Both the position numbers and the translations under genes were made by a program. Of a stretch of DNA of 45,396 nucleotides, positions 20,554 through 45,396 are shown piece by piece. The DNA comes from Candidatus Aminicenantota bacterium. Its GTDB lineage: Bacteria; Acidobacteriota; Aminicenantia; Aminicenantales; UBA4085. The notes beneath the pieces are model-generated. The model made no database searches. It was not told the origin of the DNA and saw only the letters and a list, made by a program, of their open reading frames with translations. The stretch is from the NCBI GenBank assembly GCA_017883285.1, contig JADGNV010000162.1, positions 1-45,396 on the forward strand, given 5' to 3'. How positions within the stretch are numbered: position 1 is the first letter of the stretch; each line of letters starts with the position of its first letter.

Positions 20554-21639
20554 TCACTTTCTAATGAACTTCCGCCACTCGAACAGGTCCGATCTCAGCG
20601 CATATCCGGCGAGCGCGGCGGCTGTTTCCGGCGAAATTTTCCGCAGCCATGCCCCGAGTCCCGCGATTTTTTCCGGGCCGATTTCGACCATGGACCAGGC
20701 TTCGGCCTGAATCGTCGTGGCGGGCCAGCGGTTTCGGAACCGGGCCGGGATCATGGCCTCCGCCATCCTGGCGTTGGGATTCAGGATGACGGCCTCGACG
20801 CCCCGGGCGGCGAACGCTTTGCGCCACAGGTCCAGCGCGTACCCGTAATGGGTACAGGCGAGGCCGACCACGGCCTTGGATTTTGGCCCGCGGATCTTGG
20901 CCAGGGCCTCGTCCACATAGGATTCGATGAGGAGCCCGCTATCTTCCGACCCGGGGGCTTTTTCGATGAAGCTGGCAAGTTCCGGGCAGGCCTGAGTGAC
21001 GATCCGGTCGGGCTTCACGCCCAACCCGAGCAGCCTTCGCCGGTGCTCATCCTCGCCGATCGTGGTTTCCGTGCCGAAGATGAGGACAGGGGCCGAGGGG
21101 GCGTCCTCCAAGGCGCGGGCGATGAGCTCCACGCCCGGTTCAACGATGCCGAGGACCGGGATTTTCCCGGCCCGAAAAAAGGGCGTTTCGGGGATGAACA
21201 CGGACAGCGTGTTGCAGCCGACCAGGATCGCGTCCGGCCGGCCCGACCGGGCCAGACTTTCCAGGGCGCTGTTGAAAACCGCGATCTTCTCCCCCCGCGT
21301 CCTCAGGCTGTTGTAGCCGCTGTCGTTCGAAAACAGGGCGTTGAAGAATAAGAGGCGGACGCTCCGGAAGACCCCGGCCTCTTTCAGCCTCGCGGCGAGC
21401 TCGGCCATGATCGACAGCCCGCCCAGTCCGGAGTCCATGACCGCGATCGTCACGTCGTTTTTCGCGAAGAGCCGTTCGAGCTTATCCGCGGCCTGCGGGG
21501 CGGTCGTCTGGCCCCCGCGGGCGGCGGGCGCCAGAATGGCGGTGATTAGCACCACGAAAACCCATATCATCGCCCGTTTGCGGAGATGGTCCATCTTGCT
21601 TAAAGAATACATAATGAAAATCGGAGATACAATACCCAT
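20554..21639 (-). CDS. Glutamate racemase-like protein with N-terminal signal peptide
   Basis: The body (residues 60-330) is a MurI-type racemase: VAVMDSGLGGLSIM-like start (TIAVMDSGLGG, aspartate as in MurI), first catalytic cysteine C142 in VGCNTLSV, and second C262 in LACTHYGYAL. MurI normally works in the cytoplasm, making D-glutamate for peptidoglycan. Here a signal-peptide-like segment precedes it: basic residues DHLRKR, then the hydrophobic run AMIWVFVVLITAILAPAARG. So it is probably exported or anchored. The longest start (21639) has a partial ribosome site (GGAAGA); ATGs at 21612 and 21594 are alternatives and all keep the signal. It is not next to murein genes. Role outside the cytoplasm is unknown. 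Confidence 0.85.
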   Translation of the reverse strand: MGIVSPIFIMYSLSKMDHLRKRAMIWVFVVLITAILAPAARGGQTTAPQAADKLERLFAKNDVTIAVMDSGLGGLSIMAELAARLKEAGVFRSVRLLFFNALFSNDSGYNSLRTRGEKIAVFNSALESLARSGRPDAILVGCNTLSVFIPETPFFRAGKIPVLGIVEPGVELIARALEDAPSAPVLIFGTETTIGEDEHRRRLLGLGVKPDRIVTQACPELASFIEKAPGSEDSGLLIESYVDEALAKIRGPKSKAVVGLACTHYGYALDLWRKAFAARGVEAVILNPNARMAEAMIPARFRNRWPATTIQAEAWSMVEIGPEKIAGLGAWLRKISPETAAALAGYALRSDLFEWRKFIRK

Positions 21640-21843
21640 TTCCGATCTTCCGGGTCGGCCTCATCTGGGACGCATACGTCTGCCTGTTCTTCTCCTGGGT
21701 CCGGAGGTTCTTCAAAGGGACGCTCTGGGACGCCTGAGGAGCGACGGCGCGCATCCCCGATTCGCCCCGAGAGTGGAAAAAAAGACGAAATAGTGCTAAA
21801 TTGATGTCCCTTCATGGTCCCCGGACGCTCCGGAGACCCGTGT

Positions 21844-21919
21844 GGGCCGTTAGTTCAGTTGGGAGAACGCAGCGTTCGCAATGCTGAGGCCGGGGGTTCG
21901 AGTCCCCCACGGTCCACCA
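21844..21919 (+). tRNA. tRNA-Ala(CGC)
   Basis: A full cloverleaf can be folded. The acceptor stem is GGGCCGT with ACGGTCC, including the G3-U70 wobble that marks alanine tRNAs. The anticodon loop is TTCGCAA with anticodon CGC at its centre. The T arm is GGGGGTTCGAGTCCCCC, the discriminator is A, and CCA is encoded in the gene. It reads GCG alanine codons. It lies 47 nt upstream of the Mut7-C gene and on the same strand, with no visible transposon insertion in its 3' end. Confidence 0.96.
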
Positions 21920-21965: not shown

Positions 21966-22418
21966 ATGACCTTCGTCGTCGATTGCATGCTGGGGAAGGC
22001 GGCCAAGTGGCTGAAAATCCTCGGGTTCGACGTCCTGTTCTTCTCCAAGGCCGAAGACGACGATCTCCTGGCCGTGGCCCGGCGCGACGGGCGGACGCTC
22101 CTCACCCGCGACCGCGCCCTTGCCGCCCGGGCTAAAGGTGTGACGTGTCTCCTCATCGAAAGCGAGGTCTGGGAGGATCAGATCCGCCAGGTCCTGGGCC
22201 GGTTCGACCTCTTTGCTGCGGCGCGGCCCTTTTCCCGGTGCGTCGAATGCAACGCCGCGATCAAGCCTTTGTCCAGGGAAAACGCGGCGAACCTCGTCGC
22301 CCCCTTTGTCCTGGAGCAGGGGAGGGATTTCGCCCTCTGTCCGGTCTGCGGGCGCGTCTTCTGGCAGGGGACCCATTACGAGGACATGGAATCCAGGGTG
22401 GCCGTGCTCCTCAAATAA
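21966..22418 (+). CDS. Mut7-C RNase-domain (DUF82) protein with zinc ribbon
   Basis: A 150-residue protein of the Mut7-C family. The N-terminal PIN-like half carries the acidic residues FVVDCMLGKAAKWLKILGFD, AEDDDLLAVARRDGRTLLTRDRAL (about residues 4-50). The C-terminal half has two CxxC pairs, RCVECN (about 92-95) and LCPVCGRVFW (about 125-128), that can bind zinc. The fold predicts an RNase, but no reaction is established for bacterial stand-alone members. No ribosome site is visible before the ATG at 21966. It starts 47 nt after tRNA-Ala and may be co-transcribed with it. Two palindromic structures follow its stop. Confidence 0.87.
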   Translation: MTFVVDCMLGKAAKWLKILGFDVLFFSKAEDDDLLAVARRDGRTLLTRDRALAARAKGVTCLLIESEVWEDQIRQVLGRFDLFAAARPFSRCVECNAAIKPLSRENAANLVAPFVLEQGRDFALCPVCGRVFWQGTHYEDMESRVAVLLK

Positions 22419-22424
22419 CCGGCT

Positions 22425-22442
22425 CGGGGGGTAAGCCCCCCG
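22425..22442 (+). terminator. GC hairpin after the Mut7-C gene
   Basis: CGGGGGG and CCCCCCG pair around the loop TAAG, seven nt after the Mut7-C stop. The stem is strong but no T-run follows, so it is either a weak terminator or an mRNA 3' end stabiliser. Confidence 0.45.
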
Positions 22443-22480
22443 GATTATGGAATTAATACCCGTCGTCCCGAATCCGACCC

Positions 22481-22614
22481 ATCCGGCGTTGGGGTTGCCC
22501 CAAGGCCCTCATAGCGGAGGGGGGGCCCCACCCTAAGCCTCTTGGCTTAGGCTGTGGGGGGGAACCGACGGGACTGGTTCCCCCGGAGGGCCGGGGGCAA
22601 CCCTAATGCCGGAT
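22481..22614. repeat. 134-bp branched palindromic element (long terminal arms, inner hairpins)
   Basis: The ends are 30-nt inverted arms (22481-22510 and 22586-22614; ATCCGGCGTTGGGGTTGCC against ATCCGGCATTAGGGTTGCC on the other strand). Between them are hairpins: CCCCACCCTAAGCC with GGCTTAGG.. around TCTT (22526-22559), and GGGGGAACC with GGTTCCCCC around a 9-nt loop (22558-22584). A short CCCTC/GAGGG stem (22506-22521) competes with the outer arm. Folded, it is a three- or four-way junction. No open frame lies inside. It could be a MITE-like element or a structured RNA; the sequence alone does not decide. Confidence 0.75.
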
Positions 22615-22629
22615 GCGTGTGCAGCCGAG

Positions 22630-22656
22630 TTGACATTTCTCATAGTCTGCTATAGA
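22630..22656 (+). promoter_or_regulatory. Candidate promoter of the GH116 gene
   Basis: TTGACA at 22630-22635 and TATAGA at 22651-22656 with a short 15-nt spacer, 45 nt before the ATG. It lies directly after the branched palindrome. The spacing is below optimum, so strength is doubtful. Confidence 0.4.
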
Positions 22657-22700: not shown

Positions 22701-25406
22701 ATGTCCAACCACTGTCGCGTTCTCCGCCATCGATTCGCTTTGGGAGTTGGCGCGCTCGTCTTAGCCGCGCTCATCATCGCATCGGACCTGACCGCGGCCG
22801 CGGCAGCCCCGGCGAAAGGCGCGTATACGCCGCAGGAGCTCTATCGGCTCGGCCGTCCCCGCGTTTTCCAGGGCCCGGCGCTCCGGGAAGTCGCGTTTCC
22901 GCTCGGAGGCATCGGGACGGGCACGATCTCGCTCGGCGGCCGGGGAAATCTCCGCGACTGGGAGATCTTCAACCGCCCCGATAAAGGCGTGAACCTGCCG
23001 TTCACCTTCTTCGCCCTCCATTTCCAGCAGGACGGGCAGAAGCCCGTCGTCCGCGTGCTCGAAGGCTCTCTGACGCCGCCCTTCACCGGGCCGGACGGCT
23101 ACCGCCGAGGCGAAGTCCCCGGCTTGCCGCGCATGGAAAAGGCCCGCTTTCACGGCGAATACCCCTTTGCCTGGATCGACATGGAGGACAGCCGCCTGCC
23201 CCTCCAGGTCACGATGGAGGCTTTCAATCCGTTCATCCCGCTTAATCCCGAGGATTCCGGGATTCCGGCCGCGGTCATCCGGTTCAAGGTCAAGAATCTG
23301 AGCACCAAGCCCGCCCGCATCACGATCGCCGGCTCGGTCCTCAACCCCGTTGGGTTCGAGGGGCAGGGGACGATCGAGGGCGTCGGCCACGACAAGTTCG
23401 GCCTGAACGTGAACGAGCTCCGCCGCGGGCCCGCCCTCTCCGGCCTATTCCTGTCGTCGCAGAAGGTCAAGCCCGACGCCCCCGCCTTCGGGACGCTCGC
23501 CCTGGCCACGCCCTGGAAAAACCTCACGTATCAGACCCATTGGGTTCGCGGCGACTGGTGGGACGACCTCCAGATCTTCTGGGACGACTTCGCCGCGGAC
23601 GGGCGGCTGAAGGACCTCGACGAGAAATCCCCCTCGCCCGACAAGCGGACGGACATCGGAACGCTCGGGCTCGTCGCCACCATAGAGCCCCTCGGCGAGG
23701 TCACCCTGCCGTTCATTCTGTCCTGGAACTTCCCAAACTTTCTCGACGATTTCGACATCGTCCCCGAGCAGCGGGGCAAGATCTTCAAGAACCACTACGC
23801 CGAGCGGTTCGCCGACGCCTGGGCCTCGGCCGAATATCTCCAGGCGAACCTCGGACGGCTCGAGCGGGAGAGCCGGCGGTTCCAGGACATCTTTTTCTCC
23901 TCGACCCTGCCGCCCTACATCCTCGACGCCGCTTCGAGCCAGGCGTCGATCGCCCGGACGATGACCTGCTTCTGGCTCGAGGGCGGGCAGTTCTTCGCCT
24001 TCGAAGGCTGCAACGACAAGGTCGGCTGCTGCCCGCTCAATTGTGCCCACGTCTGGAATTACGAGCAGTCCCTGGCATTCCTCTTCCCGAGCCTCGAACG
24101 CTTCATGCGCGAGGTCGATTTCCTGAGCAACACCAAGGACAACGGGGAGATGGTCTTCCGCACGTCGCTCCCGCTCTGGAGCGGGGTCTATTGGAAGTTC
24201 CGTCCGGCCGCGGACGGGTCGCTCGGCCGGATCATCAACCTCTACCGCGACTGGCAGCTGTCGGGGGACCTCGGTTTCCTGAAGAAGGTCTGGCCGAAGG
24301 CCAAGAAGGTCCTCGAATATTCCTGGCTCGCCTGGGACGCCGATAAGGACGGGCTGATCGAGGGCGAGCAGCACAACACCTATGACATCGAGTTCTACGG
24401 CCCGAACAGCATGATCGGGACGTTCTACCTGGGCGCGCTCCTGGCCGGGTCGCGGATGGCCGAGGCCGTCGGAGACGCGGAGGCGGCGAAGACATACAAA
24501 GCCCTGTTCGAAAAGGGACGGACGAAATTCGACCAGCTCCTCTGGAACGGCGAGTATTACGTCCAGAAGTACGATAAAGTCATGGAAAAGAAATACCAAT
24601 ACGGCGACGGCTGCCTGTCCGACCAAATGCTCGGCCAGTGGCTGGCGATGGTCGCCGGGCTGGGCCGGTTCCTGCCCGAGGACCGCCTCAAGACGACGCT
24701 CGGCTCGATCTACAAGTACAACTTCATGACCGATTTCCGCGATTTCTCGAACGGCCAGCGGACTTACGCCCTGAACGACGAGCGCGGCCTCGTGCTCTGC
24801 ACCTGGCCGAAGGGCGGGCGGCCGCCGCTGCCCTTCGTCTATTCGGACGAGGTCTGGACGGGCATCGAATACCACGTCGCCTCGCACCTGATCTACGAAG
24901 GCCTGGTGGACGAGGGGCTGAGCGTGGCCAAGGCCGTGCGCGACCGCTACGACGGGCTGAAGCGCAACCCCTGGGACGAGATCGAATGCGGCCACCACTA
25001 TGCCCGGGCCATGTCGTCCTGGGGGCTGGTCCTCGCCCTCTCCGGCTACTCGTACAGCGGTCCCGACATGATCCTGGCCTTCGCCCCCAAGATCTATCCG
25101 GACGACTTCCGGACGTTCTGGAGCACGGGCACGGCCTGGGGCGGGTATTCGCAGAAGACCGAAAAAGGCAAGGGCCAGAAGGCCGAGGTTGCGGTCGCCC
25201 TGGGCGAGCTCTCGCTCAAGGAGTTCCGCTTCGACCGGCCGGATTCCGTGTCCGCGAAAAAGCTTGGCGCGTTCAAGGCCGAGGCGGCAGGGAAACCGGT
25301 GAAGGCGGGGGCGGCGCTCGAGGGGACGTCCGTCAAGGTGAAATTCGACAAACCGCTCATACTCAAAGCCGGCGAAAAGCTGGTTCTCGAAGCCGAATTC
25401 AAATAA
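22701..25406 (+). CDS. Exported GH116 family glycosidase (GBA2-like)
   Basis: A 901-residue protein with a signal peptide (GVGALVLAALIIASDLTAAAAA). It has the GBA2-type N-terminal beta domain (VAFPLGGIGTGTISLGGRGNLRDWEIFNRP, about residues 62-95) and an (alpha/alpha)6 catalytic domain. The acid/base aspartate is probably D562 in GLIEGEQHNTYDIEFYGP. The nucleophile lies in the region FEGCNDKVGCCPLNCAHVWNYEQ (about 435-457), but I do not assign it to one glutamate. The family cleaves beta-glucosides, beta-xylosides or glucosylceramide. After about residue 810 there is a lysine-rich linker and a small beta domain that GBA2 lacks. A good ribosome site (GGGGAGGTAACC) precedes the ATG. It converges with the exporter operon, whose last stop is 29 nt away. 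Confidence 0.92.
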   Translation: MSNHCRVLRHRFALGVGALVLAALIIASDLTAAAAAPAKGAYTPQELYRLGRPRVFQGPALREVAFPLGGIGTGTISLGGRGNLRDWEIFNRPDKGVNLPFTFFALHFQQDGQKPVVRVLEGSLTPPFTGPDGYRRGEVPGLPRMEKARFHGEYPFAWIDMEDSRLPLQVTMEAFNPFIPLNPEDSGIPAAVIRFKVKNLSTKPARITIAGSVLNPVGFEGQGTIEGVGHDKFGLNVNELRRGPALSGLFLSSQKVKPDAPAFGTLALATPWKNLTYQTHWVRGDWWDDLQIFWDDFAADGRLKDLDEKSPSPDKRTDIGTLGLVATIEPLGEVTLPFILSWNFPNFLDDFDIVPEQRGKIFKNHYAERFADAWASAEYLQANLGRLERESRRFQDIFFSSTLPPYILDAASSQASIARTMTCFWLEGGQFFAFEGCNDKVGCCPLNCAHVWNYEQSLAFLFPSLERFMREVDFLSNTKDNGEMVFRTSLPLWSGVYWKFRPAADGSLGRIINLYRDWQLSGDLGFLKKVWPKAKKVLEYSWLAWDADKDGLIEGEQHNTYDIEFYGPNSMIGTFYLGALLAGSRMAEAVGDAEAAKTYKALFEKGRTKFDQLLWNGEYYVQKYDKVMEKKYQYGDGCLSDQMLGQWLAMVAGLGRFLPEDRLKTTLGSIYKYNFMTDFRDFSNGQRTYALNDERGLVLCTWPKGGRPPLPFVYSDEVWTGIEYHVASHLIYEGLVDEGLSVAKAVRDRYDGLKRNPWDEIECGHHYARAMSSWGLVLALSGYSYSGPDMILAFAPKIYPDDFRTFWSTGTAWGGYSQKTEKGKGQKAEVAVALGELSLKEFRFDRPDSVSAKKLGAFKAEAAGKPVKAGAALEGTSVKVKFDKPLILKAGEKLVLEAEFK

Positions 25407-45010: not shown

Positions 45011-45396
<386 letters not shown>

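Follow-up and report, generated by a model that had tools for sequence, protein, structure and literature searches.

Organization of the locus

The window analyzed here, the whole stretch of 45,396 nucleotides of contig JADGNV010000162.1 from Candidatus Aminicenantota bacterium (GCA_017883285.1), carries a 134-bp palindromic element in the spacer between a Mut7-C gene and a GH116 gene (Table 1). The element had been located at this position in a preliminary description made from the letters alone, which also held that it folds on either strand; predicted folding energies of -100.6 kcal/mol for the forward strand (z = -7.95) and -88.6 kcal/mol for the reverse strand (z = -7.28), neither of them equaled by any of 200 shuffles, agree with that view. 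The long terminal arms of that description resolve into a 21-bp outer helix (P1) and a 7-bp second helix (P2) separated by an AA/GG internal loop, and its internal hairpins into one that is variable (P3) and one that is near-invariant (P4). The description was likewise right that no frame runs through the window copy, since there is at least one stop in all six frames; forward frame 0 is closed by a single TAA near the 3' end and is otherwise open, reading AEGG...GGEPTGLVP, which resembles the open frame of Elusimicrobia copies of the element. The GC hairpin and the promoter-like TTGACA/TATAGA site that had been placed on either side of the element are both visible in the sequence, and the naming of the downstream gene as GH116 is confirmed by two profile matches. 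No clear target duplication was seen at the window copy. Elsewhere in the window, a tRNA gene lies at 21844-21916 and a 16S rRNA gene at 45011-45396 runs off the contig end.

Table 1. Features of the palindromic element and its surroundings (window coordinates)
Feature	Position	Strand	Remarks
Upstream gene, Mut7-C RNase domain	21966..22418	+	
Short GC hairpin after the Mut7-C gene	22425..22442	+	Separate from the element; read from sequence
Whole element (terminal arms, core)	22481..22614	+	Covariance-model match 22479-22616
P1 5' terminal arm	22481..22501	+	Complementarity kept, sequence differs among copies and lineages
AA side of the P1/P2 AA/GG internal loop	22502..22503	+	
P2 5' strand, GGCCC-N-C	22504..22510	+	N covaries with its partner: UA 18, GC 8, CG 5 (n = 32)
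Purine-rich conserved junction, ATAGCGGAGGGGGGG	22511..22525	+	
P3 hairpin	22526..22559	+	Variable in length and sequence
P4 near-invariant hairpin, GGGAACC-GACGGGACT-GGTTCCC	22560..22582	+	
P2 3' strand, GAGGGCC	22586..22592	+	
P1 3' terminal arm	22595..22614	+	
Promoter-like TTGACA-N15-TATAGA, 3' of the element	22630..22656	+	Read from sequence
Downstream GH116 gene	22701..25406	+	PF12215, PF04685

Distribution of the element family

Related genomes had been named in the preliminary description as the place to look for covariation and further copies, and homologous copies, covariation and target duplications were all found. The 3.09-Mb MAG to which the window belongs contains 40 BLAST matches to the element, some of them partial, and a covariance model built from 32 copies returns 44 rows, which reduce to 38 distinct places once six opposite-strand duplicates are set aside; copies in spacers are proportionate to spacer bases. 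DNA matches were obtained in 21 of the 39 genomes searched as relatives, the source genome included, and are scattered within the order, with no match in the sole same-genus relative of that set. Across the phylum, at least 10 of 297 genomes match, all from the order of the window, a count that is a lower bound because at most 11 candidates were scored per genome. The exact core pattern occurs in at least 93 stretches of named genome contigs and, among the 80 matches listed, five are from Elusimicrobia and five from CPR loci (four Yanofskybacteria and one Taylorbacteria), the remainder being titled Aminicenantes, Saccharicenans, Acidobacteria or Clostridiales. Its hosts belong to no fewer than three distant bacterial groups. 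The distribution of the family is very patchy, the exact pattern being found in 2 of 379 sampled CPR-phylum genomes and in 3 of 247 sampled Elusimicrobia-phylum genomes. The Elusimicrobia genome G324 holds about 74 copies (74 forward and 75 reverse matches to the arm sequence). No match to the element was found in plasmid, phage and E. coli collections (for the window copy itself, in plasmids only), and the exact pattern was not found in viral contigs. The portions of the literature covered by searches with the core letters, and by searches for such elements in these phyla, contain no report of the family.

Two arrangements of copies were observed apart from these counts. Tandem arrays of the element, with a period of 145-173, adjoin a fucose-isomerase-like gene at corresponding places in three Saccharicenans genomes (L094 8673-9237, L095 9268-9733 and L096 8810-9371). 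In genus g4 (L197-L234) it lies inside mosaics of further inverted repeats with arms of up to about 100 nt, and many contigs terminate at element copies.

Target duplications flank copies of the element

The behavior of the family can be read most directly in G324, where 47 distinct copies with both flanks were located via their arms. The 8 bp adjacent to the element on either side are perfect repeats in 29 of these copies and differ by one mismatch in 7, by two in 3 and by four or more in 8, these last eight lacking a target duplication. At most one mismatch is thus seen in 36 of 47 copies, whereas swapping flanks among the first 34 copies gave this result in 0.27% of cases and a perfect repeat in none. 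In a wider test of 164 copies from all lineages, the direct-repeat score was 6 or higher for eight; 60 swaps gave 0.28 such copies on average and never more than 1. The eight belong to Aminicenantes and Elusimicrobia, together with one CPR copy. None of the own-genome copies among the 164 had a clear target duplication, and the mobility of the window copy is for that reason inferred from its family.

The G324 copies measure 133 bp (33 copies), 145 bp (4), 132 bp (4), 181 bp (4), 136 bp and 135 bp. Their overall range of 132-181 bp, arms of about 20-30 bp and lack of a transposase gene correspond to the size and ends of a MITE, and the 36 copies with at most one mismatch in 8 bp supply the fixed-length target duplication. 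These 8-bp duplications identify the family as a MITE-like transposable element, and the window element is very probably one copy of such a palindromic, non-autonomous DNA transposon. Judging from duplications of 8-9 bp, a transposase provided in trans would make a staggered cut, the palindrome of about 130 bp would go in, and repair would then duplicate the target. The family as a whole is dispersed, with 8-bp (8-9 bp) duplications flanking copies in recently invaded genomes, and the window copy is most likely an old intergenic insertion without a gene-specific role.

Insertions within genes keep the reading frame

To place the G324 copies relative to genes, these were called with the flanks fused at a single target copy and without reference to the frame of the element. 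Eight of the 47 copies, whose duplication had more than two mismatches, were excluded, as were five that lie close to an end. The 34 that could be used comprise 13 intergenic copies, 7 within six codons of a gene end and 14 deep in genes, with 4 or more codons before them and 10 or more after them. All 14 deep insertions are open in the frame of the gene and add a multiple of three, against a chance expectation of one frame in three (P = 2.1e-7); only one of the seven gene-terminal copies is open, and the five inserts among the 47 that are not a multiple of three include none of the deep ones. The G324 element has one open frame per orientation, and the insertions that survive within genes are those whose open frame fits the host gene. 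We rejected the ideas that in-gene copies are spliced out or bypassed by ribosomes, since neither process would depend on the element's frame, which is open in every one of the 14 cases. In-gene copies would instead be translated as an insert of 47 to 63 residues, as reported for Rickettsia palindromic elements.

Both halves of the interrupted gene match one family in the case of rsmE, mfd, a PD-(D/E)XK nuclease and a GlcD-like (FAD) oxidase; other interrupted G324 genes code for a PfaA-like PKS/synthase and glycosyltransferases, and several have no match. A single in-frame copy also splits the profile of a Yanofskybacteria (CPR) recG gene at 583|598, so that open, in-frame insertion into protein genes, the mark of a Rickettsia-type palindromic coding element, is seen in both G324 and CPR. 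In-gene copies amount to two of six in G323 and are rare elsewhere (1 of 30 in the own genome, 0 of 28 in g4 and 1 of 82 in other Aminicenantes). The own-genome case lies near a predicted start, perhaps through a start-site error, and the one in other Aminicenantes adjoins masked bases.

Anatomy and covariation

From its ends inward, the element consists of the P1 arms, the AA/GG internal loop, P2, a junction rich in purines (TAGCGGAGGGG), the variable P3 hairpin and the P4 hairpin, the loop of which has the consensus G-M-CGGGACT. In an alignment of 32 copies, standard pairs fill 93.3% of pair cells against 80.7% in shuffles, and double changes affect 20 of 37 pairs, in three of the four helices. 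Double-changed cells number 149 against 46 in shuffles, a value that related rows inflate and that none of 500 shuffles reaches, and structures slid along the alignment give only 21-43. P4 is invariant in this set of 32, and a compensated change in it appears in G324, where GAGAACC/GGTTCTC replaces GGGAACC/GGTTCCC in 39 of 47 copies.

The terminal arms diverge fast among lineages yet stay complementary, while the junction and P4 change little, though part of this invariance stems from ascertainment, most loci having been located via the core motif. Nor is the center frozen, as covariance-model matches in G296 and G034 have the junction GTTGC and the loop GTGC(A/G)AACT. Mapped on the open frame, the invariant columns of the center make up 11/35 of first, 8/35 of second and 12/36 of third codon positions. 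Third positions are therefore as invariant as the other two and selection on a peptide does not explain the center, which appears to be constrained as a folded nucleic acid, be it RNA or single-stranded DNA.

Several variants of the center were also recorded. At the loci of the G296/G034 subfamily (L075, L076, L082, L083 and L089), TTGC could pair with GC(A/G)A, a hint of a pseudoknot. Other variants have replaced or inserted hairpin modules, some of them inside perfect target duplications, in what looks like modular evolution of the center: in a 145-bp form (L279, L286 and L299) the center is replaced, and in a 181-bp form (L291 and L305) a module is inserted. The presence of these two forms between target duplications indicates that an intact center is not strictly required for a copy to come to lie there.

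The structured-RNA alternative

Compensatory change had been put forward in the preliminary description as proof of RNA structure. The change itself was found, but it does not constitute that proof, since an inverted-repeat transposon also preserves the complementarity of its arms. An amplified structured RNA that is primarily functional (protein-binding or regulatory, for instance) and only incidentally mobile would account for the compensated pairs in three of four helices and for the near-invariant loops. It is a possible reading of the sequence, though in our estimate an improbable one. Wobble pairs in the arms bear on it in both directions: over 195 copies G.U exceeds A.C modestly (about 180 to about 125) and unevenly among lineages, being favored in CPR (7 to 1) and in a mixed Aminicenantes set (103 to 52) but not in g4 (32 to 40) or G324 (6 to 8). 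A stronger G.U bias in the alifold table was discarded as partly an alignment artefact, the values above coming from symmetric scoring. No Rfam family matched the element, either in the window at the gathering threshold or, with E up to 10, at L001, L108 and L146. The gene context of own-genome copies also speaks against a functional RNA, as it is not fixed: 10 copies lie between divergent, 14 between co-directional and 3 between convergent neighbors, which equals the background of 35, 51 and 14% of spacer bases, and the divergent-promoter position of 10 of the 27 leaves no obvious parent transcript. A preference for promoters, initially suggested by 2 convergent cases in 24, was lost against the same background.

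The search for a mover

Several enzymes were considered as movers of the element. The G324 ends are GTAARGGTTTAGC-like and start with GTAA. We take an 8-bp duplication together with GTAA ends to be a hallmark of the IS66 family, and an IS66-derived MITE would share both. Unlike such a MITE, the element resides in hosts without the corresponding enzyme, the IS66 DDE transposase being found in none of 11 genomes tested, and this origin is not supported. Derivation from IS256 is not supported either, IS256-type transposases occurring in three of the 11 genomes but not in G324, G323, the CPR genomes (G320-G322) or the own genome. No autonomous partner with the same ends was found in the G324 stretches read. 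Integron attC sites, retrons and known ribozymes we set aside as presumably different from the element.

A repeat of the REP/REPIN type, moved by a RAYT (Y1) transposase, would also be palindromic, intergenic and multi-copy, and Y1 genes exist in 29 of 39 genomes of the order. Their occurrence is independent of that of the element, as a 96% complete genome (G022) lacks Y1 genes despite carrying at least 11 copies, no Y1 gene lies near any listed copy by comparison of positions, and none was seen flanked by the element. Y1 single-strand transposition is, moreover, not expected to leave 8-bp target duplications. We regard this mover as highly unlikely.

There is some chance, albeit a low one, that an undescribed mobilization machinery recognizes the nearly invariant folded center, in the form of RNA or single-stranded DNA. 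Complementarity is all that the arms would then need, one family could cross phyla while its ends drift, and transposition would proceed otherwise than where a DDE enzyme recognizes terminal repeats of fixed sequence. The G324 copies in which the center is replaced, and which still lie between target duplications, speak against its recognition.

The GH116 gene

The window copy directly precedes a promoter-like site and the GH116 gene, a position that had also suggested a 5' regulatory element of that gene, a role we regard as very improbable. No element match was obtained in the orthologous Mut7-C/GH116 spacers of four relatives (G001, G007, G003 and G012), nor in the spacer of a second Mut7-C/GH116 pair on contig C97 of the own MAG, and these five spacers leave a conserved role at GH116 unsupported and control of the gene already largely refuted; other copies, moreover, sit on many unrelated contigs, beside unrelated neighbors and in no fixed orientation. 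Among the three options of the preliminary description, the MITE has thus gained support from target duplications and copy number, 5' regulation of GH116 has found no support and a structured RNA is possible but improbable.

The same spacers provided further observations. In G001 and G007 the Mut7-C/GH116 spacer (L313 and L314) holds another palindrome instead, of a second family (GGAGACACAATACC...GGTATTGTGTCTCC) that takes a variant form in G007, and a fragment similar to it lies at about 21617-21646 of the window. The second pair of the own MAG (G000:C97:29-1216) is diverged, being about 70% identical, and may be a paralogue or contamination, the listed contamination of the MAG being 6.2%.

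Comparison with known palindromic elements

Several described elements resemble the MITE-like family reported here. Rickettsia palindromic elements are palindromes of about 105-150 bp with a stable stem-loop that insert in frame into unrelated conserved protein genes and contribute a peptide to them (PMC10969869, PMC2229807), their target duplication being entered as '?' in Table 1 of PMC2229807. The likeness, drawn from these descriptions, extends to size, palindromy and in-frame gene insertion, whereas those elements have been described in Rickettsia and the present family spans three phylum-level groups, has 8-bp duplications and, unlike them, combines a nearly invariant center with fast-changing arms. 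MITEs like QMITE2 of Coxiella, with terminal repeats, direct repeats of 7-9 bp and a core of about 113-145 bp (PMC10969869), share these three traits with the element, but a usual MITE family is identified by its terminal repeats and this one by its center. REP/BIME sequences with their RAYT are likewise small spacer palindromes with many copies per genome, from which the element differs in its target duplications, its large four-helix fold and the lack of a link to Y1 genes.

A nearly invariant center with drifting ends reverses the usual MITE pattern and needs explaining, and the roughly 74 G324 copies with clean 8-bp duplications make the movement of such palindromic elements testable. Protein-coding palindromic elements, described in Rickettsia, now reach groundwater Elusimicrobia and CPR lineages, in which they provide natural inserts of about 47 residues in conserved proteins such as RecG, Mfd and RsmE.
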